Assembly (NCBI GenBank): GCA_005790505.1
Contig: SXUP01000038.1
Span: forward strand, 1 to 33,133
DNA length: 33,133 nt
Origin: Actinomycetota bacterium
Lineage (GTDB): Bacteria > Actinomycetota > Acidimicrobiia > Acidimicrobiales > Ilumatobacteraceae
Reading direction: 5' to 3'
Part shown: piece by piece, positions 6,914 through 18,838 of the stretch
How positions within the stretch are numbered: the first letter of the stretch is position 1
How the letters are laid out: each line of letters opens with the position of its first letter
The notes under the pieces: model-generated
Database searches by the model: none
The model's input: only the letters and a program-made list of their open reading frames with translations
What the model was told of the DNA's origin: nothing
Translations under genes and position numbers: made by a program

Positions 6914-8206
6914 ATGTCTGAAGCAAATCCACACCGCACAAAGCGACAGAAGGTTCTTCTCGTTTTCAATATCGTTATTGCACTGAGTTGCATAATTGGT
7001 GGTTCTGGATTGCTATATGCCAACTATCGACTTAGTGATCGGCAAGTTGTCACCATTGACTCATCTAATGGTGACGACAAAAACGATGACTCTGGATCAA
7101 TTGCAAATGAATGGAACCTGCCACCGGGAGATCTGTCAGCACGCAATTATTTAATAACTGGAACCGATAGTCGTGCCTGCATCGATCCAAAATCTCCGTT
7201 TGCTGGGGGGTTTGGTGAAGGCAGCAACTTCGGTGAACGTAGCGATACCATCATGGTGATTCGTGTAAATCCTCTAGATGATCAAGCGATTATCCTTTCT
7301 TTCCCCCGTGACATGTGGGTAAAGATCTCCGGATCAACGCGCAAAAGTCGCATCAACTCGGCGTTCCAACGCAAGGATCCAAACAAACTGATACAAACGA
7401 TCAAAGACAACTTTGACATCAGCATTGACCACTATGTCAACATTGACTTCTGCACATTCAAAGATATTGTGGAAGCTGTTGGGGGCGTCAAAGTACCGTT
7501 TTTGTATCGCACACGAGACAAGAGCACGGGCCTCAATGTTCCGCAGCCGGGATGCTTCACATTCACTGGCGATCATGCTCTCGCTTATGTACGATCACGC
7601 AAGTACAGCTATTACGATGCAGTGAAGAAAAAATGGCGCACTGACGGACTCAGCGATTGGGGTCGCATCAGTAGACAACAGGATTTCACACAACGGATGG
7701 CCCAGAGAGCTCTGGAAAGGGGTCGCACAAACCCCCGGATTGCAACCCAAATGCTCAACACTGCCCTCAAAAATGTGATCACCGATGACAAACTCACGCC
7801 GATGAAACTTTTGCAATTGGCACAGGCAATGAAAAACTACGACCCGGCAACAATGGGGACATACACAATGCAGGCCATTGGCGCCCGAATTGGCAAGGAA
7901 AATGTGTTGCTGCCTGATCTTGACAATTCAAATATGAAAGATATTCTTTCAATTTTTCGTGGTCAGGCAAGTCTGAAAAAGGCTCCGCCGCCAGCTGACA
8001 CTGCTCTCACCACCGAAAGCACCGCGATGGGAACATCATTTGTTGTTCAAACATTGGGGGTGATGTCGGCAATCCACAAAATTCCATCAGTGGCAACGGT
8101 CATCACTTCACCAACCACTCCGACGCCTACCACCATTGTTCAAGAACTAAGTCCGACCCCCAACAAACGTGGAATCACACCACCATATGATCCGAGTTGT
8201 CACTAG
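6914..8206 (+). CDS. LytR-CpsA-Psr (LCP) family cell-wall glycopolymer ligase
   Basis: 430 residues. A short basic cytoplasmic N-terminus is followed by one membrane helix (about residues 13-35) and an extracellular LCP domain from about residue 75: NYLITGTDSRA, RSDTIMVIRVNP, ILSFPRDMWVKI, SRINSAF, YVNIDF and GDHALAYVRSR, including the Asp/Arg residues that hold the polyprenyl-pyrophosphate head group and magnesium. LCP proteins transfer glycopolymers (arabinogalactan, teichoic or capsular polymers) from lipid carriers to peptidoglycan. A Pro/Thr-rich tail with a final Cys closes the protein; I see no LytR_C domain. The ATG is preceded directly by the 6893-6913 hairpin. The polymer it attaches cannot be told. 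Confidence 0.88.
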   Translation: MSEANPHRTKRQKVLLVFNIVIALSCIIGGSGLLYANYRLSDRQVVTIDSSNGDDKNDDSGSIANEWNLPPGDLSARNYLITGTDSRACIDPKSPFAGGFGEGSNFGERSDTIMVIRVNPLDDQAIILSFPRDMWVKISGSTRKSRINSAFQRKDPNKLIQTIKDNFDISIDHYVNIDFCTFKDIVEAVGGVKVPFLYRTRDKSTGLNVPQPGCFTFTGDHALAYVRSRKYSYYDAVKKKWRTDGLSDWGRISRQQDFTQRMAQRALERGRTNPRIATQMLNTALKNVITDDKLTPMKLLQLAQAMKNYDPATMGTYTMQAIGARIGKENVLLPDLDNSNMKDILSIFRGQASLKKAPPPADTALTTESTAMGTSFVVQTLGVMSAIHKIPSVATVITSPTTPTPTTIVQELSPTPNKRGITPPYDPSCH

Positions 8207-8222: not shown

Positions 8223-9224
8223 TCACTCCAAAACACGAGCCAATGCTTCGGGTATCTCTGATGGGCCGCTAATCAAAGTCAATCTTGCACCCACTGAACT
8301 AGCCAAGAGACGTGCTTCATCAGAATCTTGCTCAGGAGCAATTATGACTATCTCTTCCAGACTTTGCGCTGCTGCTATCACATCGCCTTCTACCGTGGAT
8401 CGACAGTCACTCAACAGCACCGCCACGCGTCGTCCTGCTCGTGAGCGTGATAACTGTTGACTTGCCACAATCAGCGCGCCCGTGAGGTCGGTCGTCCCAA
8501 AACCACGAAGCGTGAGCACATCGTTGACCACTGCATCGCTTGATTTTTCAATATCTTGTGATTTTGCAATCACCACATCCTTTCCAAAAGCCAAAACACT
8601 GTAATCACTCGGGGTTCGACACGCAATGGCAGCAGCGGCAATAGCCGCAGTTGCGAGTGGTTTGCCGCCCATTGATCCACTGCGATCAACCAACAAGCAC
8701 AGCGCAACACCAGGCTTTGTCCATCCGCGAACGCGCAGACTATTTGAGTCAGGGATAATTCCGTGTTGCAATTCATTTAAAGCATCAAGGCTCGCATCAA
8801 TATCAAGATCACCTGCATCTGGCTGATAAGGAAGCGTCGTCATGCGACCAACTCCGCGCGGCTTGGTCGGACCACTCCGACCCAGGTCAAGCATGAGTCG
8901 ACCAGCCAATCTTCGTGCAAGTTCTCTCAACTTGGGATCGGTTGCCGCAGTTAAATCAGCAATCATCCCAAGCATCTCATCTGGATTACTTTGCATTGCT
9001 TCGTCAACGGCGAGTTCATCAAGTACCCCAACTTCCGGCGAAACCTGAGCAAAATTTCGATGTCTGGCAAGTTCACGACGAGATGTCGTCTGTCGACCTG
9101 CTTTGGCGATCGCCTCATCGGCGGCTAGACCTTCTTTGCTTAGTGGGAGTTGATGGCCCCGCTCGGGGCTCCAACTTTTCCCACGGTATTTTCTCCGTCC
9201 ACCCGACCAAAAACGTCTTGCCAT
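8223..9224 (-). CDS. VWA-domain protein, partner of the MoxR-type ATPase
   Basis: About 333 residues from the ATG at 9224; an ATG at 9260 is also open. The N-terminus is very basic (MARRFWSGGRRKYRGKS), the middle is helical, and the C-terminal half is a von Willebrand factor A domain with the complete metal-ion-dependent adhesion site: DRSGSMGG, a Thr in GFGTTDLTGAL and LLSDCRST. MoxR-VWA pairs act as chaperones that remodel or insert metal/cofactor into target enzymes. The start overlaps the moxR 3' end by 85 bases, so the two are tightly coupled. It is the last gene of an operon led by the NDMA-type alcohol dehydrogenases and ends 16 bases from the convergent LCP gene. It also resembles CoxE/magnesium-chelatase-D-like proteins. 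Confidence 0.85.
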   Translation of the reverse strand: MARRFWSGGRRKYRGKSWSPERGHQLPLSKEGLAADEAIAKAGRQTTSRRELARHRNFAQVSPEVGVLDELAVDEAMQSNPDEMLGMIADLTAATDPKLRELARRLAGRLMLDLGRSGPTKPRGVGRMTTLPYQPDAGDLDIDASLDALNELQHGIIPDSNSLRVRGWTKPGVALCLLVDRSGSMGGKPLATAAIAAAAIACRTPSDYSVLAFGKDVVIAKSQDIEKSSDAVVNDVLTLRGFGTTDLTGALIVASQQLSRSRAGRRVAVLLSDCRSTVEGDVIAAAQSLEEIVIIAPEQDSDEARLLASSVGARLTLISGPSEIPEALARVLE

Positions 9225-10063
9225 ATTTCTGTCACGATTTCGTCGGATGTGCGATTGCAACCTTCTCGCACCCGAACACGCCCACTTAAGGCCACAAGAG
9301 CCGCGTCGAGTGAGACACTCGGTTGAGAGGCTTCTTGACCCCGCAATTCCGCCAAAGATTGTGCCACGAGCACCGTGTCGACTGCTCCACGCACAGATGA
9401 ACCGACCCGCAGATCAGAATGTGTTCGCGTACGGCGAACAACTTCAACAATGCCTTCAATCCAGGTTTCATTCAATTTTCCGCGAATCATATTGCGTTCT
9501 ACGATTTCTTTTTCTTCTGTCAAAATTTGATATCCCATTGAAACGCGACAAACGCGGTCGTACACGGCAGCAGAAATTCGGGCAGTACCAACGGCGTCAA
9601 ACGGGTTCATCGCCGCCACTAATCTAAATCCGCTTGATGCCGCAATACGACCCAAACGTGGCACATGGATTTCACCCTCACTCATAACAGTGATCAAAAC
9701 ATTGAGAGTTTCTTCGGGGATGCGATTGATTTCTTCGACATACAGCAATGATCCATCACGCAATGCCGTCACAAGTGGCCCATCAACAAACACCTCAGGG
9801 TCGTATCCTTGAGTCATTACTCGCGCTGGATCAAAGTGACCAACTAATCGAGCCGGAGTCAATTCGGCATTACCCTCTACAAATTCAAATCCAATGCCTA
9901 ATCCGCTGGCAACTGCCCGCAACACCGTGGACTTGCCTGTTCCGGGAGGACCCTCAAGCAATACATGTCGATCGGCGTCAAGTGCAGCCAAGACGAGTTC
10001 AAGTTCGCGTCGCCGACCTACAACTTGGTCACAGAGTTGATCCAGCAGTTGTCTACTAGCCAT
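9140..10063 (-). CDS. MoxR-family AAA+ ATPase
   Basis: 307 residues, the usual size for MoxR ATPases. Walker A is GPPGTGKST (about residues 38-46), Walker B is LLYVEEINRIPEE with the ENRxP-like MoxR signature, sensor 1 is FRLVAAMNPFDAVGT, and a C-terminal lid domain follows. MoxR proteins work in the cytosol with VWA partners, using ATP to mature or activate specific enzymes; the founding member supports methanol oxidation in Paracoccus. The ATG overlaps the end of the upstream alcohol dehydrogenase by eight bases (ATGGCTAG), and the downstream VWA gene overlaps its own end, which points to one co-translated unit. The client is inferred from context only. Confidence 0.92.
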   Translation of the reverse strand: MASRQLLDQLCDQVVGRRRELELVLAALDADRHVLLEGPPGTGKSTVLRAVASGLGIGFEFVEGNAELTPARLVGHFDPARVMTQGYDPEVFVDGPLVTALRDGSLLYVEEINRIPEETLNVLITVMSEGEIHVPRLGRIAASSGFRLVAAMNPFDAVGTARISAAVYDRVCRVSMGYQILTEEKEIVERNMIRGKLNETWIEGIVEVVRRTRTHSDLRVGSSVRGAVDTVLVAQSLAELRGQEASQPSVSLDAALVALSGRVRVREGCNRTSDEIVTEIWQDVFGRVDGENTVGKVGAPSGAINSH

Positions 10064-11207
10064 AAACGATTACGCCACGAAGATTCTCGCCGTCGCGCAT
10101 CGCTCGATATCCCTCGTTGATTTGGTCAAGACTGTAAGTCTTTGTGATTAGTTCGTCTAATTTGAGTTGGCCAGCACGGTACATATCAAGGAGTGCAGGA
10201 ATATCGGCCCGTGGGTTGAGGCTGCCAAAGATTGTCCCTTTTATTTCTTTGTTCCACATCGCAAGTTGGAAAAGGTTAATGCTGGCGGTGCTATCCATCA
10301 TTGGCGAGATTGCGGTAACAACGACCGTCCCGCCCTTTCCTGCGAGGGTCATTCCCGACTCCATCATTTCTCCGTGCAAAACACCAGGGGTCATGATGAC
10401 TCGGTCTGCCATTTGACCCCATGTCATTTCCATCACGGCGGGGATCGCTTCTTCCATTGAAGAAAATGTATGTGTTGCCCCAAATTCCATCGCCTTTTCG
10501 CGTTTCAATTCAACGGGGTCAATCGCAATAATTCGCGTTGCACCTGCCATGCGTGCACCCTGCACAGCATTCATGCCGATGCCCCCAATTCCGACTACAA
10601 CAACCGTGTCTCCAGCCTGTGTTCCGGCTCGACTGGTGGCCGAGCCCCATCCTGTTGCTACGCCACAAGACACCAGTGCAACACATTCAAAAGGAATATC
10701 TGGCTCTACCTTTATCACGGAGTCCTCGGCCACGCATGCGTATTCGCTGAATGTTCCCAACTTTGCCATCAAGGTGACGGGCTTGTCTCCACGCGCAAAG
10801 TGACGGTGTGTTCCGTCTGTAATCATTCCACCAATAAATGTCTGTGCTCCTGCATCACACAAGTTTTGGCGACCAGTGCTGCAGTACCGACAACGACCAC
10901 AACTTGGCACAAAGCTCGCAGATACGTGGTCTCCAACTTTGACGCTCGAGACCCCAGAACCAACCTCGATCACAACTCCAGCGCCCTCATGCCCCCCGAT
11001 AACTGGAAAAAAATCTTCTATTCCCATCAACGGCCATGCTTCTTTGGGTGGGACTAAATCACCTGTCACTAGATGTTCGTCGCTATGACAAAGACCCGCT
11101 GCTTTCCATTGCACCAAGACTTCTTTGGCCTTGGGGGAATGAACCTCAATCTCCTCGACGCTCCACTCTTGATTGAGGCCCCACAATATTGCTGCTTTTG
11201 ATTTCAT
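10056..11207 (-). CDS. NDMA-dependent-type zinc alcohol dehydrogenase (copy 2 of 2)
   Basis: 383 residues, medium-chain zinc dehydrogenase. Catalytic zinc ligands: Cys in GLCHSDEHL, His in GGHEG and Cys in LVSCGVATGWG. Structural zinc ligands: the four cysteines of CGRCRYCSTGRQNLC. The Rossmann glycine motif is GIGGIGMNAVQG. HSDEHLVTGD and the overall pattern match the family of alcohol dehydrogenases that hold NAD tightly and are found with mycofactocin genes; they need an external electron acceptor (NDMA in the assay) instead of exchanging NADH. Relative to its neighbour it has about twelve extra residues between HLVTGDL and VIGGHEG (VPPKEAWPLMGIEDFF). A good AAAGGA ribosome-binding site precedes the ATG, and moxR overlaps its 3' end. 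The alcohol substrate is unknown. Confidence 0.92.
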   Translation of the reverse strand: MKSKAAILWGLNQEWSVEEIEVHSPKAKEVLVQWKAAGLCHSDEHLVTGDLVPPKEAWPLMGIEDFFPVIGGHEGAGVVIEVGSGVSSVKVGDHVSASFVPSCGRCRYCSTGRQNLCDAGAQTFIGGMITDGTHRHFARGDKPVTLMAKLGTFSEYACVAEDSVIKVEPDIPFECVALVSCGVATGWGSATSRAGTQAGDTVVVVGIGGIGMNAVQGARMAGATRIIAIDPVELKREKAMEFGATHTFSSMEEAIPAVMEMTWGQMADRVIMTPGVLHGEMMESGMTLAGKGGTVVVTAISPMMDSTASINLFQLAMWNKEIKGTIFGSLNPRADIPALLDMYRAGQLKLDELITKTYSLDQINEGYRAMRDGENLRGVIVYG

Positions 11208-11257
11208 ATTTTTGTCCTTTTACTCAATACTTTTTTGAAATAAATTCTTCGCCACCG

Positions 11258-12370
11258 TCAGTCCAAAACTAAAACGCCACGAATATTCTTGCCATCTCGC
11301 ATTGCCTCGTAGCCGTCATTGACTCCTTCAAGTGGATACCGTTTAGTTATCAGTCCATCGAGATCAAGTTGACCTGCGCGGTACAAGCCAATCAATTTGG
11401 GAATATCAGAGCGGGGATTTCCAGAACCAAACAGAGAGCCCACAACTTGTTTTTCCATCAATGTGAGATCCAATAAGTTCATGGTCACACTCATCTCAAA
11501 TGCGGGATGAATGTTGGTGACAACAACCCGTCCACGCTTTGCCGCTAGCCCCATTGCTTCTGCCATAAGAGCACCATTTCCGATTCCCATGGTCATAATG
11601 ACTTTGTTGGCCATCGTTCCCCAAGTGATGTCTTGCAGCAAAGGCAATGCTTCAGCCATTGAAGCAGCAGTATGAGTCGCGCCGAGTTCCATAGCCTTTT
11701 CACGTTTGAATTCCACGGGATCAATCGCCACGATGCGTTTTGCACCCGCAAGTTTTGCCCCTTGAATTGCATTGGCGCCAATACCACCAATACCAACCAC
11801 CGCCACAGTGTCGCCGGGACGGGTTTCTGCCGCATAAACAGCACTTCCCCAACCTGTTACAACACCACATCCGAGTAAACATGCGCGATCAAGTGGAATA
11901 TCGTTATCAATCTTGATGCAGGATGCTTCGTTCACAACCGTGTGATTGGCAAATGTTCCAAGCAAGCACATCGTTCCTAGGTCTTGTCCTTGGGCATGAT
12001 GCCGCGATGTGCCGTCGGTGATTTGTCGACCCGTACCCATGAGTGCTCCGAGATCGCACAGGTTTTGGTGCCCGCGGGAACAACTAGCACATTTCCCACA
12101 CGAGGGGATAAATCCAAACACCACATGATCTCCAGCGGCAAGCCAACTCACGCCGGCTCCGACCTCTTGCACCACGCCTGCACCCTCATGGCCTCCGATG
12201 ATGGGTAGACCAAACGGCAAATCACCAGTCACTAAGTGTTCGTCGCTATGGCACATTCCCGACGCGGCAATTTTCACAAGCACTTCGCCCGGGCCTGGCG
12301 GGTCAAGTTCAATCTCCTCAACACTCCAAGGCTTATTGATTTCCCATAAAATTGCGGCCTTAGTTTTCAT
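11258..12370 (-). CDS. NDMA-dependent-type zinc alcohol dehydrogenase (copy 1 of 2)
   Basis: 370 residues. It has the same architecture as the adjacent copy: catalytic zinc residues in GMCHSDEHL, GGHEG and LLGCGVVTGWG, structural zinc CGKCASCSRGHQNLC, and nucleotide-binding GIGGIGANAIQG. It lacks the insertion before GGHEG and so represents the standard form. The two copies are clearly paralogous over their whole length, suggesting a tandem duplication followed by divergence. It is the first gene of the minus-strand operon, has GGGGGA seven or so bases before its ATG, and starts 141 bases from the divergent mycofactocin precursor gene. That makes it a likely mycofactocin-using enzyme (established family association; specific role inferred). 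Confidence 0.93.
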   Translation of the reverse strand: MKTKAAILWEINKPWSVEEIELDPPGPGEVLVKIAASGMCHSDEHLVTGDLPFGLPIIGGHEGAGVVQEVGAGVSWLAAGDHVVFGFIPSCGKCASCSRGHQNLCDLGALMGTGRQITDGTSRHHAQGQDLGTMCLLGTFANHTVVNEASCIKIDNDIPLDRACLLGCGVVTGWGSAVYAAETRPGDTVAVVGIGGIGANAIQGAKLAGAKRIVAIDPVEFKREKAMELGATHTAASMAEALPLLQDITWGTMANKVIMTMGIGNGALMAEAMGLAAKRGRVVVTNIHPAFEMSVTMNLLDLTLMEKQVVGSLFGSGNPRSDIPKLIGLYRAGQLDLDGLITKRYPLEGVNDGYEAMRDGKNIRGVLVLD

Positions 12371-12511: not shown

Positions 12512-12658
12512 ATGCAAACCACCAATCCAACAGCCGACCCAACCCCCGAAACAGCCCCCCAGAAGTCCAAAGGCACAGATTCAACAACGATCCTTGCTCT
12601 TGAGGAGGAACTCTTGATTGAAGAGATTTCGATCGACGGTATGTGCGGCGTCTACTGA
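12512..12658 (+). CDS. mftA: mycofactocin precursor peptide MftA
   Basis: A 48-residue ORF ending ...EEISIDGMCGVY, the diagnostic C-terminus of the mycofactocin precursor. MftC acts on the final Val47-Tyr48 (oxidative decarboxylation of Tyr, then a carbon-carbon cross-link to Val), and MftE releases the Val-Tyr-derived core. Preceding it is the acidic LALEEELLIEE stretch that is typically recognised by MftB. The N-terminal third is an unremarkable Thr/Pro-rich leader (PTADPTPETAPQ). The ATG at 12512 has only AAGG close by; TAGTAC nine bases upstream may be a -10 element giving an almost leaderless mRNA. mftB follows after 19 bases. The gene is short enough to be missed by automatic annotation. 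Confidence 0.95.
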   Translation: MQTTNPTADPTPETAPQKSKGTDSTTILALEEELLIEEISIDGMCGVY

Positions 12659-12677
12659 AAAGTCTCTGCGCTTGACC

Positions 12678-12944
12678 ATGACTATCACCATCGACTCTGC
12701 GTGCGAACTAGACCCTCGAGTGTCGCTACGACCAGAGCCATTTGGTGCACTCGCCTACCACTACGGCAACAGAAGGCTTGTGTTTTTGCGTCATCCTGAT
12801 GTTGTATCGGTCGTGAAATCCCTAGGTGAACACGCGACAGTGCGTGAAGCTCTCATGGCCAACTCTGTTCTTGAAACACGGTGGCCTGCATTTGTTTCAG
12901 CAATTGATTCACTCTCTGCCTCGGAAATCATCCGTGTCCGTTAG
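12678..12944 (+). CDS. mftB: mycofactocin peptide chaperone MftB (RRE protein)
   Basis: 88 residues from the ATG at 12678; the frame is open from an upstream ATG at 12618, but that would run across the end of mftA. The text CELDPRVSLRPEPFGALAYH followed by YGNRRLVFLRHPDVVSVVKSL is characteristic of MftB, a small PqqD-like RiPP recognition element that binds MftA and delivers it to the radical SAM enzyme. It sits between mftA and mftC as expected, and its stop overlaps the mftC GTG start by 11 bases. No catalytic activity is expected. Confidence 0.93.
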   Translation: MTITIDSACELDPRVSLRPEPFGALAYHYGNRRLVFLRHPDVVSVVKSLGEHATVREALMANSVLETRWPAFVSAIDSLSASEIIRVR

Positions 12945-14064
12945 CCCTCTCATCGGCGAGCTCAAGCAAGGACTTGATGCCCCCATCTGCTTGACATGGG
13001 AACTTACTTATGCCTGCAACCTGTCATGCATTCACTGTCTTTCCAGTAGCGGACAACGCGACCCGGATGAATTGTCGACTGCACAAGCAAAAGCCGTGCT
13101 CGACGAGTTGCGCGATCTTCAGGTCTTCTACATCAACATCGGTGGTGGCGAGCCGATGATTCGCCGTGACTTTTTCGAGATTCTTGAACACGCAAGTAAA
13201 AATGGAATTGGTGTCAAGTTTTCAACCAACGGCGCTTTCATTGATTACGAAAAAGCACTTCGTCTTGCCGCCATGGATTACCTTGACATACAAATCAGTC
13301 TCGATGGCGTCGATTCAATCACTAACGATGCAGTACGAGGATTAGGGTCATATGACCTTGCACGACGGGCAATGGACAATCTTGCAGCAGCAAATTTTGG
13401 TCCGTTCAAGATCTCCGTTGTCATGACTCGTCACAATGTGTCACAGCTCGACCAATTTAAAGATCTTGCTGATTCATACGGTGCGCAACTGCGCATCACG
13501 CGGTTGCGCCCCGCTGGTCGTGGCGCCGATACATGGAACGATTTACATCCAACCAACGAGCAACAACGAGAAATCTACAACTGGCTGATGTCGCACGGCG
13601 ACAATGTCTTGACGGGTGATTCGTTTTTTCACCTCAATGCCCTTGGTCCTGCACTGCCCGGATTGAATATGTGCGGTGCTGGACGCGTTGTCTGCCTCAT
13701 TGACCCAATCGGTGATGTCTATGCATGCCCCTTCGTCATCCATGATGAGTTCAAGGCAGGAAGCGCCCTTGGTGTTGGTGGTTTCACAAAAGTTTGGCGC
13801 GAGTCTGCCCTATTTAAGGAACTTCGTGAACCACAAAGTGCTGGGGCGTGCGCATCATGTGGTTCATACGATGAATGCCAGGGCGGTTGCATGGCGGCAA
13901 AGTTTTTTACAGGTCTTCCGCTCGATGGACCTGATCCTGAGTGTGTCAAGGGACATGGTCAAGAATCTCTCCTTGCAGTCCCAATTTTGCTTACACCCCG
14001 ACCAACACCTGACCACAGCAAACCGACACTAATCAAGTTACAAAAGCCCGTCGTGAGAGTCTGA
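12934..14064 (+). CDS. mftC: mycofactocin radical SAM maturase MftC
   Basis: 376 residues from a GTG at 12934 with GGAAA just upstream; an in-frame ATG at 12826 would overlap most of mftB and is unlikely. The radical SAM motif is CxxxCxxC at residues 28, 32 and 35 (YACNLSCIHC), followed by GGGEPMIRRDF (the SAM-binding GGE). The C-terminal SPASM domain has many cysteines: MCGAGRVVCLIDPIGDVYAC, then CASCGSYDECQGGC and a last Cys near PDPEC, ligating two auxiliary iron-sulfur clusters. MftC decarboxylates the terminal Tyr of MftA and then cross-links it to Val. Its stop is separated by one base from the plsY-like ATG, so translation is probably coupled. Confidence 0.96.
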   Translation: MSVSPLIGELKQGLDAPICLTWELTYACNLSCIHCLSSSGQRDPDELSTAQAKAVLDELRDLQVFYINIGGGEPMIRRDFFEILEHASKNGIGVKFSTNGAFIDYEKALRLAAMDYLDIQISLDGVDSITNDAVRGLGSYDLARRAMDNLAAANFGPFKISVVMTRHNVSQLDQFKDLADSYGAQLRITRLRPAGRGADTWNDLHPTNEQQREIYNWLMSHGDNVLTGDSFFHLNALGPALPGLNMCGAGRVVCLIDPIGDVYACPFVIHDEFKAGSALGVGGFTKVWRESALFKELREPQSAGACASCGSYDECQGGCMAAKFFTGLPLDGPDPECVKGHGQESLLAVPILLTPRPTPDHSKPTLIKLQKPVVRV

Positions 14065-14065
14065 A

Positions 14066-14668
14066 ATGATTGCCACTTCAATCGCAGTTGTGCTGATGTT
14101 TTTGTTGTCGTATTTTATTGGCACATTTCCGAGCGCAATCATGGTGGCTAAAAGCAAAGGCCTTGACATCATGCACGTCGGCTCAGGCAATCCGGGCACC
14201 AGCAACATTGCGCGCGCCATGGGCTGGAAATATGGTGCTGCTGTTTTAATCATGGATGTGGGGAAGGGGTCAATAGCAACGGTTATCGGAATCTTTGTTT
14301 CTGATCGCGGTCTTGGCTATCTCTGCGGTGCAGCGGCAATTCTTGGGCACATGTTTCCACTACAACGCAAATTCAAAGGTGGGAAAGGAGTCGCAACAGG
14401 AGCAGGAATCATTTTTGTAATGCAATTCTTTGTCATGCTTCTTCTTCTCGTGATGTGGTTTGTGATGCTCAAACTGACGAAAAAGGCATCTATCGGCTCA
14501 ATAGTGCTCCTGCCTTTGCTTCCGGTTTTTCTTGCCGTCGCTGGCTCACCAGCCTGGGAGATCTGGACAACCATCGGACTCGGAGTCATCATCGAGATTC
14601 GCCACACCGCCAACATCAAACGATTGCTTTCCGGAAGCGAACCACCTCTTGGTGGAGTGGTGCCATAA
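14066..14668 (+). CDS. plsY: PlsY-like glycerol-3-phosphate acyltransferase inside the mycofactocin operon
   Basis: 200 residues, an integral membrane protein with about five helices. The three PlsY motifs are present: SGNPGTSNIARAMG, KGGKGVATGAG and RHTANIKRLLSGSE. PlsY transfers an acyl group from acyl-phosphate to glycerol-3-phosphate, the first step of phospholipid synthesis in most bacteria. It starts one base after the mftC stop (TGAAATG), so it is surely in the mft transcript. It stands where mftD, the flavin dehydrogenase, is usually found. It could be the cell's housekeeping PlsY captured by the operon or a dedicated paralogue; the sequence does not decide. Motif residues look intact. 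Confidence 0.88.
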   Translation: MIATSIAVVLMFLLSYFIGTFPSAIMVAKSKGLDIMHVGSGNPGTSNIARAMGWKYGAAVLIMDVGKGSIATVIGIFVSDRGLGYLCGAAAILGHMFPLQRKFKGGKGVATGAGIIFVMQFFVMLLLLVMWFVMLKLTKKASIGSIVLLPLLPVFLAVAGSPAWEIWTTIGLGVIIEIRHTANIKRLLSGSEPPLGGVVP

Positions 14669-14677
14669 TCGGCAAAT

Positions 14678-15304
14678 ATGCTTCCTTTTCTTGATACTTT
14701 TTTCACTTGGCTTGAAGAATTTTCTTCATCTCCATCTTTTTATCTGGTGATATTTAGCATCGCCATTGCTGACTCCGTAATCCCAATTGTGCCGAGTGAA
14801 ACAATGGTTATCATCGCTGGAGTTAGTGCCGGCAGTGGGCAACTCTTCTTGCCCCTTGTCATAATCGCTGCCGCAGGTGGAGCATTTATTGGTGACAACC
14901 TGAGCTACCTCATCGGTCGCTCGGCGTCGGCACGAATCACTCGATACTACGAGCGCAACGAAAAAGGCCGCAAGCGGCTGGCCTGGGCTCACGCTCAGGT
15001 TCGTGAGCGGGGTGGATCACTTTTGGTGACCGCTCGATTTATTCCGGGAGGTCGAACCATCGTCACCCTGTCTTGTGGCATTACTAATCAAGCTCATCGC
15101 TGGTTTGCCCAATGGGTGCTTTTTGCGGGCATCATTTGGGGAACTTACGCTTCCCTGCTTGGCTACGTGGGTGGTAAAACTTTTGGGGACAATCATACTT
15201 TGGCATTTTTAGTGGCCTTTGGAATCGCGCTTTCTGCAACGGTATTAATTGAAATTGTTCGCGCTGAGCGCAAGAGACGTTCAGGCAGTCCTAACCTGCA
15301 CTAA
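14678..15304 (+). CDS. DedA/SNARE-associated family membrane protein
   Basis: 208 residues with an N-terminal amphipathic segment, several membrane helices, and the DedA signatures GDNLSYLIGR and ARFIPGGRTIVTLSCG (the conserved F-x-PGxR element in the re-entrant region). DedA proteins move lipids or isoprenoid phosphates such as undecaprenyl phosphate across the membrane and affect proton-motive force and drug tolerance. It starts nine bases after plsY, and its TAA overlaps the mftE ATG (TAATG). The genomic position implies co-expression with mycofactocin maturation. A functional link, for example recycling a polyprenyl carrier for glycosylation, is speculation. Confidence 0.85.
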   Translation: MLPFLDTFFTWLEEFSSSPSFYLVIFSIAIADSVIPIVPSETMVIIAGVSAGSGQLFLPLVIIAAAGGAFIGDNLSYLIGRSASARITRYYERNEKGRKRLAWAHAQVRERGGSLLVTARFIPGGRTIVTLSCGITNQAHRWFAQWVLFAGIIWGTYASLLGYVGGKTFGDNHTLAFLVAFGIALSATVLIEIVRAERKRRSGSPNLH

Positions 15305-15972
15305 TGACGCTTGACGCGCGCCCGATACTCGTTGTTCCGATCGGCGCCTACGAACAACACGGAACGCACCTGCCTTTTGACACTGATACGCGCATCGCCA
15401 CCGCCATCACCCAACTTGCCCTCCTTCGTTGCCAATTAGATAATTTTGTCATTGCACCAGCACTACCAATCTCTGCTAGCGACGAACACAGAGGGTTCAG
15501 TGGCACCTTGAGCGCCGGGACTCAGGCCACAAAGGAATTTTTAATCGCCATTTGTCGATCTGCTGAATGGAGTCGTGGTGTTGTCTTGGTCAACGGTCAT
15601 GGTGGCAATGCAGACGCACTCCAGTCCGTGCACTACGCACTTGACCACGAACAAATCACCCATGCCATCTGGTCTGTCACCGGATCAGCAATAACCGACA
15701 CACACGCGGGACATTTTGAGACGTCAATCATGCTGCATCTTTTTCCTGAGCTGGTGCAGATTGATACTGCAGTAGTCGGCAATACCACCGCACTCGATCA
15801 AATTATGCCCACCATGCGGGAGAATGGTCTGCGCGCTGTCTCTACCACGGGCGTACTTGGCGACCCCACTACTGCGACTGCCGCTGATGGTTGCCTGCTC
15901 GTGGAACAAAATGTTGTGTCACTTACTCAAGTTCTGTTGCAATGCTCGTCTGCATGGAGTGCTGCTTCGTGA
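15304..15972 (+). CDS. mftE: mycofactocin peptidase MftE (creatininase family)
   Basis: 222 residues. The creatininase fold shows its metal ligands: Glu17, His19 and Asp28 in GAYEQHGTHLPFDTDT, the histidine of VNGHGGN, and the glutamate of AGHFETSIML. MftE cleaves the MftC-modified MftA to free the Val-Tyr-derived dipeptide (AHDP), which becomes the cofactor core. Length and motifs are normal for the family. Its ATG overlaps the dedA stop by one base, and its TGA overlaps the mftF GTG (GTGA), so it lies inside one co-translated string. Confidence 0.93.
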   Translation: MTLDARPILVVPIGAYEQHGTHLPFDTDTRIATAITQLALLRCQLDNFVIAPALPISASDEHRGFSGTLSAGTQATKEFLIAICRSAEWSRGVVLVNGHGGNADALQSVHYALDHEQITHAIWSVTGSAITDTHAGHFETSIMLHLFPELVQIDTAVVGNTTALDQIMPTMRENGLRAVSTTGVLGDPTTATAADGCLLVEQNVVSLTQVLLQCSSAWSAAS

Positions 15973-17339
15973 CGATTGCTTGGCGCATTGATTCTTCGTG
16001 GTACCGCAACGGAGACGGTCATGTAGTTTTTGGCGGTTCACCATTGCGCGCATTTAAACTTTCAGATGCTGGTGTTGCCATTGCAACTGCTCTTGAACAA
16101 TCAAAGCCACTCGGCGCAGGTCACGAACAACTCACCGACAGGCTTGTTCAAGCGGGGGCGCTGCACCCGAGCCTGTCCGATGCAGTATCTCCGCATGAGA
16201 TAACAGTAATTATTCCGGCGTACGTTTGTAATCCTGAGGATTTGCCCACCCTGCAGACACTCATCACGCAGTTTCAAAATCACCCCGTGATTGTTGTCGA
16301 CGACGCATCTCCCATCGAGGTCACCGCTACGGGCATCACGCTGTTGCGACACCCGACCAATAGAGGTCCTGCTGCTGCTCGCAATACAGCACTTCAGCAA
16401 GTGTCCAGTCAATTCATTGCCTTCGTCGACCTAGACACATCAATAACCAGCGAGAATCTTTGCATTCTTGCTTCGCATTTTAAAGACGGGAAAGTTGGAA
16501 TTGTGACACCCCGAATCACTTCGCGTGCTTCTCCTTCAATTATCGGTCGCTACGAGGTCGCCCGATCACCACTCGATATGGGTCTCAAGCCAGCCCTCGT
16601 GAAACCACTCACGCGAGTCTCTTTCGTCCCATCCGCAATCATGCTTGCCCGCACTGATGCAATTCGTCAATGCAATGGATTTAACGAAGATATGCGCTTT
16701 GGCGAGGATGTCGACCTTGTTTGGAGATTTGTCGATACTGGAGTCATGTGTCGGTATGAGCCAGAAATCATGGGGGTCCACACCGCCCGAACATCACTCC
16801 GTCAGTTTTTTAAGCAGCGCTTTAACTACGGTACGAGCGCAGCAGTGCTGGCCCACAGGCACGGCTCCTATGCCGCCCCGTTTGTCGCAAACATCTTCCT
16901 ATTTGGATTCTGGATTTGCTTGGCTTTCTGGTTACCACTCATGGCTGGATTGTTCTTGTTTGCCCAGATAATTTCTTCGTTCGTGGTGTTACTTCGTACT
17001 GGAGACAACCTTTTTCACGCTTGTGCAACTGTCATCACTGGCATTGTCAACTCAGCACGATTGTTTGCAGATGCGATGACGCGGGTTTGGCTTTTACCAG
17101 CACTTTTAATTTCAGTTTTTTATCCACAAATTTTATGGACTGTACTTCTGTCTTTTGTTCTTCCCGGATTATTTGAATGGTTCCGCTTTCACACACTAGA
17201 TCCGTTCACCTATGTTGCACTTCGCGCCATTGATAACTCTGCTTATTGCATCGGAGTAACTATCGGAACATTGAAACAGAAATCCTTGGCTGCGTTATCG
17301 CCAAAAATTACTGTCTGGCGGTCGCGGCGCGCAAAGTAA
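15969..17339 (+). CDS. mftF: mycofactocin glycosyltransferase MftF
   Basis: About 456 residues from the GTG at 15969, which overlaps the mftE stop (GTGA) and has GGAG nine bases upstream; an ATG at 15954 is the alternative. A short N-terminal MftF-specific region is followed by a GT-A family 2 domain: ITVIIPAY, VIVVDDASP, NRGPAAARNTAL, the DxD-like AFVDLDTSI and FGEDVDLVWR. Then come several hydrophobic helices (about residues 300-410). MftF adds glucose units to the premycofactocin core to form an oligosaccharide-bearing cofactor. It is the last gene of the mft operon; its final 32 bases overlap the convergent DUF4395 gene. Confidence 0.93.
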   Translation: MTIAWRIDSSWYRNGDGHVVFGGSPLRAFKLSDAGVAIATALEQSKPLGAGHEQLTDRLVQAGALHPSLSDAVSPHEITVIIPAYVCNPEDLPTLQTLITQFQNHPVIVVDDASPIEVTATGITLLRHPTNRGPAAARNTALQQVSSQFIAFVDLDTSITSENLCILASHFKDGKVGIVTPRITSRASPSIIGRYEVARSPLDMGLKPALVKPLTRVSFVPSAIMLARTDAIRQCNGFNEDMRFGEDVDLVWRFVDTGVMCRYEPEIMGVHTARTSLRQFFKQRFNYGTSAAVLAHRHGSYAAPFVANIFLFGFWICLAFWLPLMAGLFLFAQIISSFVVLLRTGDNLFHACATVITGIVNSARLFADAMTRVWLLPALLISVFYPQILWTVLLSFVLPGLFEWFRFHTLDPFTYVALRAIDNSAYCIGVTIGTLKQKSLAALSPKITVWRSRRAK

Positions 17340-17814
17340 TATCGTTGCACTCGGCACAAATAGATGCAGGAATAATTTTCCAAAGCATAAGTTGAGAAAA
17401 AATAAGACAACCCAAACAAACTCCAACGAAAGACTCCAGAGAAGCTGCCAGCGCAAGCAAGCCGATCGTGACCGTCGCAGCAAAATGTAAGTCAAAAAGC
17501 CACAGCACACTTGCGGTGAGCGAAAACAACATCCCGATGGTCTGTGCGAATCTTTTTGGCGGCCCCGGAACTAGACGCTGTGGCAACCCAAGTCGAGGCG
17601 TGATGAAATGGGTCGCAAGGCGACCAAGCGGGCTCAATCGTGGACCGGCCAACACTCGGGCAATAAATCCGTAGCTCAAGGGAAGCAGAATCCAGCCATT
17701 CTGAGTGACCACAAATGCCGCACTCATCAATACCACGCCCCCTGCCACTACTCGTGCAGAAACTTCATTAACGGGGTTTGGAAATGAAAACAAGGATGAA
17801 ATTTTCCCGGGCAT
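17308..17814 (-). CDS. DUF4395 membrane protein
   Basis: 168 residues with about four membrane helices, matching DUF4395 as I know it: NPVNEVSARVVAGGV near the N-terminus, NGWILLPLSYGFIARVLAGP, SPLGRLATHFITPRLG, and FVGVCLGCLIF with the conserved G-C pair near the end. Function of the family is unknown; relatives often sit near sulfurtransferase or thioredoxin genes, which are not present here. The start is well fixed: TAGCCT, six bases, then ATG on the minus strand. The 3' end overlaps mftF by 32 bases tail to tail. A hydrophilic tail after the last helix contains a further cysteine pair (SICAEC). Confidence 0.8.
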   Translation of the reverse strand: MPGKISSLFSFPNPVNEVSARVVAGGVVLMSAAFVVTQNGWILLPLSYGFIARVLAGPRLSPLGRLATHFITPRLGLPQRLVPGPPKRFAQTIGMLFSLTASVLWLFDLHFAATVTIGLLALAASLESFVGVCLGCLIFSQLMLWKIIPASICAECNDITLRAATARQ

Positions 17815-17826: not shown

Positions 17827-17869
17827 AGTTTTTTTTCTCGACTAAACAACTCAACATTTGATTACGGGG

Positions 17870-17881
17870 TACCGTCTAAGT
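17870..17881 (+). promoter_or_regulatory. leaderless -10 element (TACCGT) of the racemase-like gene
   Basis: TACCGT at 17870-17875, six bases, then ATG at 17882. This selects 17882 over an in-frame ATG at 17858, because the latter would lie upstream of the presumed transcription start. Confidence 0.55.
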
Positions 17882-18838
17882 ATGACTTTGCGATTAATCG
17901 TGCATCAAGCCAACTGGAAGGAGCATTTGCGTGCTACGTCGCTTGATTTTGGCGGCTTAGTGCCGGTAGTCAAAGGTAACGGATACGGAATGCGACGATG
18001 GAACCTGATGCAGATGGTCGGCGAACTGTCGTCGGAGGTAGCCGTTGGCACGGTCTATGAGACTCACGACATTCCTGAAGGAATAACGGCGATTGTTCTG
18101 ACCCCGACCATGTCTGCCCCGCCCAAGACTATGCCTGTCTCTACCGTGCTGACCGTTGGTCGTCTTGAACATATTAAGGCCCTGTCGCACTTTAATTGGA
18201 CGGGAAATATCGTTATAAAACTGCGTTCATCAATGTTGCGATACGGCACGACTCAGGAGAACCTTGCAGATCTCTTGGCAGAAGCGAGAAATGCAAATCT
18301 AGAGATCGTCGGGTTTTCCATCCACCCACCACTTGACGGTGACATGCAACTGCATATCAAAGACATTGAAAATTGGCTTGAACACATCAGCTCGGCCCTG
18401 CCGGTTTATGTCAGCCATGTCAGCGCTTCCGCTGTTCGTCAGCTTCGAAGATATTATCCGCAACACGAATTTAGAATTCGACTCGGCACAGAGTTGTGGC
18501 TTGGCGATAAATCAATGATGAAACTGAGCGCTGATGTCCTTGACAGTCATGCTGTCAAATCATCGCAAGCAGTCGGCTATCGACAACAAAAAGTCAGTGG
18601 AATGGGTGAAATTGTCCTTGTTGGAGCAGGCAGTGCTCACGGAGTTTTCCCTCTAGACGACGGTCAAAGCCCATTTCATTATCAAAATCAACGAATTAAT
18701 CTTCATGAAGCGCCACACATGCACACGTCAATGCTGTTCATTGCGCGGGGTAGACCAGTGCCACCAATTGGTGAGTGGATTGATGTGCAGCGTCCTCTTA
18801 CGCAGGTTCAAATAGATGTTTTACAGTGGGCAAAATAA
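17882..18838 (+). CDS. alanine-racemase-like PLP-barrel protein, atypical C-terminal domain
   Basis: 318 residues, shorter than canonical alanine racemase (about 360-380). The PLP lysine motif is present as PVVKGNGYG (canonical VVKANAYG), followed by barrel features VAVGTVYE, KLRSSMLRYG, GFSIHPP and VSHVSASA and an FRIRLGTELWLG segment. In the C-terminal domain, where racemases have GYxDG with the second catalytic base Tyr, this protein reads VGAGSAHGVFP, with no Tyr at the equivalent place. It could be a racemase of different mechanism, an amino-acid decarboxylase-like enzyme or a PLP carrier. Similar short proteins occur in other actinobacteria, some near Fem-type peptidoglycan-bridge ligases as I recall. 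None is seen here. Confidence 0.72.
   Translation: MTLRLIVHQANWKEHLRATSLDFGGLVPVVKGNGYGMRRWNLMQMVGELSSEVAVGTVYETHDIPEGITAIVLTPTMSAPPKTMPVSTVLTVGRLEHIKALSHFNWTGNIVIKLRSSMLRYGTTQENLADLLAEARNANLEIVGFSIHPPLDGDMQLHIKDIENWLEHISSALPVYVSHVSASAVRQLRRYYPQHEFRIRLGTELWLGDKSMMKLSADVLDSHAVKSSQAVGYRQQKVSGMGEIVLVGAGSAHGVFPLDDGQSPFHYQNQRINLHEAPHMHTSMLFIARGRPVPPIGEWIDVQRPLTQVQIDVLQWAK

Follow-up and report, generated by a model that had tools for sequence, protein, structure and literature searches.

Among the described systems, the one closest to the locus studied here is the mycobacterial mycofactocin cluster mftABCDEF. Deletion of mftD in Mycobacterium smegmatis abolishes premycofactocin (PMFT) and MFT-n, all redox-active forms of the cofactor, and forms of 3-amino-5-[(4-hydroxyphenyl)methyl]-4,4-dimethyl-2-pyrrolidinone (AHDP) build up (PMC7491314). 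The mftD gene (TIGR03966) occurs in most, but not all, mycofactocin species (Haft, 2011, PMC3023750), and antiSMASH 6.1.1 needed the mftD profile to call mycofactocin clusters (PMC11162802). The same account (BGCFlow) describes 17 Saccharopolyspora clusters that have TIGR03997 and lack mftD, an absence that refers to the clusters, the rest of these genomes not having been looked at here, and cites other work by which S. erythraea makes methylated mycofactocin (PMC11162802). Here we analyzed a mycofactocin locus without mftD in a 33,133-base stretch of DNA (henceforth the window), which is the entire contig C28 of an Ilumatobacteraceae genome assembly (G000; 2.01 Mb, 66 contigs, 97.4% complete; G, L, C, g, and f labels are the genome, locus, contig, genus, and family codes of this analysis). 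Between mftC and mftE, this locus carries plsY and dedA.

We conclude, with a probability of roughly 85%, that the mft genes of the window are threaded through a housekeeping gene string, that mftD resides on another contig and would serve the usual route to the cofactor, that PlsY and DedA are predicted housekeeping proteins, and that the gene order is the likely remnant of a locus of the OYE/electron transfer flavoprotein (ETF) type found in relatives. Taken alone, the window is mostly ordinary, with a displaced mftD, a housekeeping string and a gene-order scar of moderate interest; weightier is the pattern of two modules, MftD and OYE/ETF, across its relatives.

The mftD gene is encoded outside the operon

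The operon lies on the forward strand and comprises mftA (12512..12658, encoding a precursor that ends in IDGMCGVY; TIGR03969, 47.5 bits, cut-off 25), mftB (12678..12944; TIGR03967, 88.8 bits, cut-off 33), mftC, encoding the radical SAM maturase (12934..14064; TIGR03962, 612.4 bits, cut-off 265), plsY (14066..14668), dedA (14678..15304), mftE, encoding the peptidase (15304..15972; TIGR03964, 228.5 bits, cut-off 172), and mftF, encoding the glycosyltransferase (15969..17339; TIGR03965, 316.1 bits, cut-off 280). All five mft genes score above their curated cut-offs, and from mftA to mftF the genes are spaced by a 19-base gap, an 11-base overlap, a 1-base gap, a 9-base gap, a 1-base overlap, and a 4-base overlap. 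Gene calls and profile scores thus bear out the order given in the initial annotation of this DNA, with gaps of 1–19 bases or overlaps throughout. The run plsY-dedA-mftE-mftF follows mftC in six of the eight other sampled congeners (G217, G234, G249, G284, G295, and G306); in the other two (G261 and G273), dedA was not seen between plsY and mftE. Since the order recurs in other assemblies of relatives, the comparison that the initial annotation had proposed rules out an assembly join and shows that the arrangement is not a one-off.

Searching the whole genome with TIGR03966 returned no match inside the window, as had been noted from the window alone, and a single match above cut-off elsewhere: a full-length, intact mftD on contig C7 (frame 10730-11902, 390 residues; match 10736-11884, about 662 bits against a cut-off of 470.85). 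Loss of mftD from the genome is ruled out by this copy. Three alternatives had been offered for the missing gene, namely mftD elsewhere in the genome, another enzyme in its place, or a different product. The first is what we found, and neither of the others is needed for this genome, yet in 48 of the 99 mftC-bearing relatives described below another enzyme probably takes its place.

Both neighbours of the C7 gene are on the opposite strand, an uncharacterised gene at one end and a set of genes resembling those for peptide transport at the other (both named by eye), and the C7 product can be aligned along its whole length with the MftD proteins of Streptomyces, Tsukamurella, and Mycolicibacterium. 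Contamination is an unlikely source of this copy because mftD scores above cut-off in nine of nine sampled genomes of the window's genus (g1) and because the C7 MftD pairs with that of the congener G217 at a starred branch of the MftD tree. The genome also encodes an MftD paralogue of the lactate-dehydrogenase family (contig C20, 38651-39757; 260 bits with TIGR03966), and similar paralogues are common in the family; it was rejected as the MftD, being below cut-off in a genome with a 662-bit copy. With mftD either moved out of the locus or never there, cofactor synthesis would most likely take the usual route, in which MftA is modified by MftB and MftC, cut by MftE, oxidised by MftD, and glycosylated by MftF.

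An OYE/ETF module stands at the usual place of mftD in relatives

The initial annotation had read plsY and dedA as occupying the place of mftD. This reading found no support in relatives of the OYE type, which have OYE and ETF genes at the usual place of mftD, with plsY and dedA merely between them. At locus L014, the gaps of the gene frame shared with the window hold OYE1 (TIGR03996, 642.3 bits, cut-off 627.9), OYE2 (TIGR03997, 941.5 bits, cut-off 793.15), a mycofactocin-associated ETF alpha (353.6 bits, cut-off 240), a FixC-like protein (332.9 bits with PRK10015, under the cut-off of 466), and ETF beta (176.3 bits, under the cut-off of 200). A small ferredoxin-like (FixX-like) frame was present in 16 of the 17 OYE-type loci scanned by pattern and adjoins fixC where checked. 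Full runs of mftABC-OYE1-plsY-OYE2-dedA-etfA-fixC-etfB-(mftE)-mftF occur at L217, L220, and L258, and in many other family genomes the module is split over two or three places. A second locus in G241 (L144) reads dedA-mftD-mftE-mftF. The window genome itself gave no match to the OYE2 profile TIGR03997 at E 1e-90. As a separate observation, mftE was not seen between dedA and mftF at three loci of genus g135 (L216, L219, and L222), and a whole-genome search found MftE above cut-off in none of nine sampled g135 genomes, with relatives of 127–141 bits in seven and none in two; another peptidase may release the core there.

In the family, mftD and OYE2 exclude each other. Of 121 family genomes searched, 99 have mftC above cut-off. 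We found mftD in 44, all with mftC (41 above cut-off and three split or contig-edge fragments, in G301, G223, and G298), and OYE2 in 50 (44 above cut-off and six contig-edge fragments, in G307, G218, G272, G266, G304, and G305, assigned by score per position), two of which (G240 and G201) have no mftC match. The 99 mftC-bearing genomes thus comprise 44 with mftD only, 48 with OYE2 only, none with both, and seven with neither (G208, G246, G250, G264, G283, G294, and G311), for a Fisher p of 7e-21 that ignores kinship. The 63 that are at least 90% complete divide in the same manner (31 mftD only, 30 OYE2 only, 0 both, and 2 neither), and genera g5 and g135 each include genomes of both kinds. Telling against too simple an exclusion, TIGR03997 gave matches below its cut-off in 14 of the 44 mftD genomes, at 371–503 bits where listed, which is about the score range of OYE1. 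Those listed lie on other contigs than mftC or more than 500 kb away (G134) and were not scored with TIGR03996; the exclusion claim is limited to OYE2 and mft-linked OYE1. Since MftD is needed in M. smegmatis and was required by antiSMASH 6.1.1, yet 55 of the 99 mftC-bearing family genomes have neither an mftD above cut-off nor a fragment of one, the question of what replaces it matters.

The module as a candidate replacement for MftD

The precursor frame ends in IDGMCGVY in 57 of 57 family loci (31 of the mftD type, 25 of the OYE type, and one neither). The best dehydrogenase of each locus has a median identity to that of the window of 82.8% in 20 OYE-type loci and 82.1% in 19 mftD-type loci, with the window included and only loci with matches above 300 bits counted. 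Because the core is identical and the dehydrogenase equally similar, both locus types probably yield one and the same redox-active cofactor, which the OYE types would have to produce by other means.

OYE2 is a FadH/OYE-type protein in which four cysteines (C342, C345, C349, and C361 in L014 numbering) are strictly conserved among 38 sequences, several of them near-identical, forming an apparent 4Fe-4S site. In the same sequences, an invariant histidine (H169) aligns with a histidine of trimethylamine dehydrogenase that we take to be His172, and an invariant serine (S171) stands at what is presumably the position of the general-acid tyrosine of ene-reductases. The best solved relatives are reductases (6qkg, 248.8 bits; 2,4-dienoyl-CoA reductase 1ps9, 245.9 bits), and OYE2 also matches histamine dehydrogenase (3k30, 214.8 bits) and trimethylamine dehydrogenase (1djn, 193.8 bits) over most of its length. 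Judged by its residues, a trimethylamine-dehydrogenase-like enzyme is unsupported beyond the superfamily, as only the histidine aligns among the catalytic residues compared. Amine dehydrogenases of the trimethylamine/histamine type use ETF. Because etfAB and FixCX genes lie beside OYE2, the natural reading is that the module would carry out an ETF-linked oxidation, either of AHDP or of the reduced cofactor, and oxidation of AHDP would fit the exclusion with mftD better than re-oxidation of the reduced cofactor. We infer that genomes without MftD most likely rely on the OYE/ETF module to make the redox-active cofactor.

The alternative that survives best is that, in mftD-less relatives, OYE/ETF/FixCX re-oxidises mycofactocinol, the role of MftG, which is the established connection between mycofactocin and respiration, and that the cofactor comes from some other, unseen deaminase or is left as the amine. 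In favor of such a role, ETF together with FixCX typically delivers electrons to the quinone pool, and mftG is annotated alongside mftD on plasmids of Streptomyces NBC_00080 and Tsukamurella and is not annotated in OYE-type regions. However, MftG (TIGR03970) is rare in both types: it is above cut-off in one of 121 family genomes (G207, OYE type), and the window genome gave no match at E 1e-70. The module tracks the absence of mftD, not of mftG, and loss of MftG as its correlate was rejected within the family. Moreover, some mftD-less genomes have at most a marginal lactate-dehydrogenase-type relative, as in G102 (99% complete, best E 3.4e-6), and M. smegmatis loses all redox-active forms without mftD (PMC7491314). 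We therefore regard a pure re-oxidising role as possible but doubtful. The single MftG among 121 genomes also raises the question of the route by which mftD-type members without MftG re-oxidise the cofactor.

The two modules have probably been exchanged repeatedly

MftC sequences from 71 of the 99 family genomes and from six others make up a tree of 77 rows, on which the mftD/OYE2 states need at least eight changes. A tree of 116 rows drawn from the family, from other families, and from plasmids, without the rows that carry neither gene, requires 14 changes, five of them forced by well-supported branches. For a formal test, we used a tree of 122 rows (70 family, 40 order, and 12 plasmid; mftD in 50, OYE2 in 50, both in 0, and neither in 22), with the two genes scored separately. 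Its well-supported branches provide 10 independent pairs with contrasting mftD states; OYE2 differs in the opposite way in 4.6 of these on average, in the same way in none, and shows no difference in 5.4, the last being mostly, we think, loci only partly in view. The median p is 0.06 (range 0.016–0.5), and the family-only test yields three pairs (median p 0.25) and no pair in which OYE2 follows mftD. The direction of the pairs is consistent with exclusion and formal significance is not reached.

These p values, together with the clustering of states by genus, are what speaks for explaining the exclusion as a by-product of lineage inheritance unrelated to function. Against this, OYE2 never follows mftD in any pair, the best 122-row tree needs a minimum of 18 changes in mftD and 20 in OYE2, and both states are found within two genera (g5 and g135) and four families outside the window's own (f3, f13, f45, and f47), several times in the same mftC-mftE slot. 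We consider inheritance alone an improbable explanation. In the MftD tree, the 30 sampled family MftDs are interspersed with those of other families and comprise two lone rows and two groups that lie far from each other. One group (g1, g6, and g135) falls in a starred clade together with a single MftD from another family; the second (g2 and g5) shares another starred clade with MftDs from outside the family. This scatter fits repeated acquisition.

The same exchange is seen outside the family. From 69 order-level genomes with mftC above cut-off, we examined 40 mft loci by tblastn, reading the state from the locus only: 15 have mftD only, six a full OYE2 only, none both, and 19 neither, two of the last (G163 and G004) with OYE2 partly in view. 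At one mftD locus (L325, G042), a 32%-identical OYE relative starts about 4 kb from mftD and was not scored further. The mftC-mftE slot holds mftD in G061 and OYE/ETF genes in G101, both of family f3, and likewise mftD in G124 and OYE/ETF genes in G091 of f47; both states also occur in f45 (G179 and G123) and f13 (G188 and G163). Among plasmids, we examined 21–25-kb stretches of 12 records with mftC, also by tblastn and without searching the chromosomes, and found mftD and OYE2 together in none of the 12. Six Streptomyces plasmids have OYE1-OYE2-etfA-fixC-etfB directly after mftC, and four records carry mftD (Streptomyces NBC_00080, Thermomicrobium, Tsukamurella, and Mycolicibacterium). Two haloarchaeal plasmids carry a relative of OYE2 (625–630 bits with TIGR03997, under the cut-off of 793.15) with etfA and fixC nearby and no mftD in the stretch. 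Apart from the plasmids, three records titled Bifidobacterium breve (L017, L050, and L081) have Acidimicrobiia-like mft loci, and their titles look wrong.

Together, these patterns lead us to favor, with some reserve, a model of two interchangeable maturation modules. Where the FMN enzyme MftD is missing, FadH/OYE flavoenzymes with their own ETF and FixC/FixX would serve as a premycofactocin synthase linked to ETF and possibly independent of oxygen; AHDP would be deaminated and the electrons handed to the quinone pool. These modules would have been swapped several times in several families of one actinobacterial order and in Streptomyces, with the OYE/ETF form also on haloarchaeal plasmids, and the window operon would be the scar of one swap.

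plsY and dedA belong to a gene string also found without mft genes

Where, then, do plsY and dedA come from? TIGR00023 matches one place in the window genome, the plsY of the operon, so that the second copy which the initial annotation had suggested looking for was not found; each of nine genus members likewise has one match. PlsY is most likely the housekeeping acyltransferase because it is the only plsY match in the genome, and it would partner PlsX, which also has a single match (323.3 bits, cut-off 243.4), in ordinary phospholipid synthesis. DedA belongs to the VTT family (VTT_dom of Pfam, 68.6 bits, cut-off 33.9), scores far below the cut-offs of the UptA equivalog models (46.3 against 300 and 35.3 against 250), and would be an ordinary membrane protein.

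In three genomes of genus g142 (G205, G277, and G299), none with an mftC match, an LCP (LytR-CpsA-Psr)-like gene, plsY, dedA, and alr stand on one strand with no mft genes between them, and alr directly follows dedA in their loci L201, L204, and L206. The window retains this frame, with VWA, MoxR, alcohol dehydrogenase, and mftABC genes placed between LCP and plsY, and mftE, mftF, and a DUF4395 gene between dedA and alr. Its left end is the LCP-like gene (6914..8206, forward strand), whose product is 44–47% identical to that of the gene directly before plsY in L201, L204, and L206, and which is a presumed LCP family member; its right end is alr, encoding an alanine-racemase-like protein (17858..18838, forward strand; Ala_racemase_N, 48.6 bits). 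None of 39 mft loci outside the family has LCP, plsY, dedA, or alr. As the string stands without mft genes in g142 and is absent from the 39 outside loci, plsY and dedA appear to be long-standing residents around which the mft genes have been threaded in the window. All nine sampled genomes of g142 and all nine of g137, both genera of the same family with small genomes, are without an mftC match, apparently through whole-system losses or absences of mft.

The resident string also suggests how the window came by its gene order. The ancestral locus would have been of the type mftABC-OYE1-plsY-OYE2-dedA-etfA-fixC-fixX-etfB-mftE-mftF, and its flavoenzyme and ETF genes would have been lost when mftD was acquired elsewhere, a direction we infer from gene order. 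Such a loss explains the order of the window more simply than several insertions because plsY and dedA sit inside the OYE1...etfB run at L014, L217, L220, and L258, and the same run without them is the order outside the family (G101, G091, G123, and G167).

Several points weigh against this account. Contig C7 is short (13,193 bases), though relatives have the same mftD gene. The PlsY match spans residues 6–193 of 200 and, at 136.1 bits, falls 1.1 bits under the TIGR00023 cut-off of 137.2. The plsY locus was read in one mft-less genus, g142, in three genomes that are 95, 78, and 80% complete, and not in the nine of g137, and the copy-number search covered plsY, not dedA. Trees alone cannot separate gain from loss, and the direction rests on gene-order parsimony. 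Finally, plsY is linked to mftC across the family: among listed plsY matches of at least 114 bits, one begins no more than 700 bases downstream of mftC in 68 of the 99 mftC-bearing genomes, and 82 have one on the strand of mftC at a distance of up to 10 kb, so that tying plsY to mft could still bring some benefit. That this linkage and the tight operon overlaps mark PlsY and DedA as working parts of a membrane-linked mycofactocin pathway, as the initial annotation had hinted, with PlsY acylating and DedA flipping or carrying a lipid-bound precursor for MftF, is nonetheless very improbable in view of the single plsY alongside plsX, the string kept in three mftC-less genomes, the mft loci in which dedA was not seen beside plsY (such as L013, L015, L018, and L022), and the lack of both genes from the 39 outside loci.

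Flanking genes

Four genes on the reverse strand precede mftA. The nearest encodes an N,N-dimethyl-4-nitrosoaniline (NDMA)-dependent, mycofactocin-linked alcohol dehydrogenase (11258..12370; TIGR03989, 556.8 bits, cut-off 440), and the next a second zinc alcohol dehydrogenase (10056..11207; ADH_N and ADH_zinc_N) that is 57% identical to it. Beyond these dehydrogenase genes lie those for a MoxR-type AAA ATPase (9140..10063; AAA_5, 94 bits) and an adjoining VWA-domain protein (8223..9260; VWA_2, 32.1 bits; VWA_CoxE, 27.4 bits). The MoxR/VWA pair (8223-10063) is common beside mft dehydrogenases, with MoxR in 34 and VWA in 32 of 61 family loci, and an annotated VWA/AAA pair is likewise present in the mft regions of two haloarchaeal plasmids (L337 and L338); the pair may have a role in the assembly or reactivation of nicotinoproteins. 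Downstream of mftF, the reverse strand encodes the DUF4395 protein (17308..17814; 127.6 bits), which is often found between mftF and alr.

Comparison with known systems

In the mycofactocin literature that we consulted, we did not find the mutual exclusion between mftD and OYE2 described. A candidate replacement for MftD makes the question directly testable and helps explain clusters that rule-based tools misfile. It also opens a way into mycofactocin-linked electron transfer where a genome lacks MftG, named as an open question in the MftG paper (PMC11778925).

Compared with mycobacterial mftABCDEF, the window genome has all six genes above curated cut-offs, the same precursor core, and an NDMA-dependent dehydrogenase. 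It differs in that mftD lies apart from the operon, plsY and dedA stand between mftC and mftE, and no mftG was found. OYE2 of the relatives matches the trimethylamine and histamine dehydrogenases, which are FMN/4Fe-4S enzymes of the OYE type, over most of its length and has ETF genes adjoining; it differs in that its top solved relatives are reductases, and of the catalytic residues of trimethylamine dehydrogenase compared only the histidine aligns. The Saccharopolyspora clusters differ from the window genome, which is itself of the mftD type, and their account, in the sections concerned with these clusters, makes no mention of ETF/FixCX genes, mutual exclusion, or replacement of MftD (PMC11162802). 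They resemble its mftD-less relatives, which also carry FadH/OYE oxidoreductase 2 and a precursor ending in IDGMCGVY.

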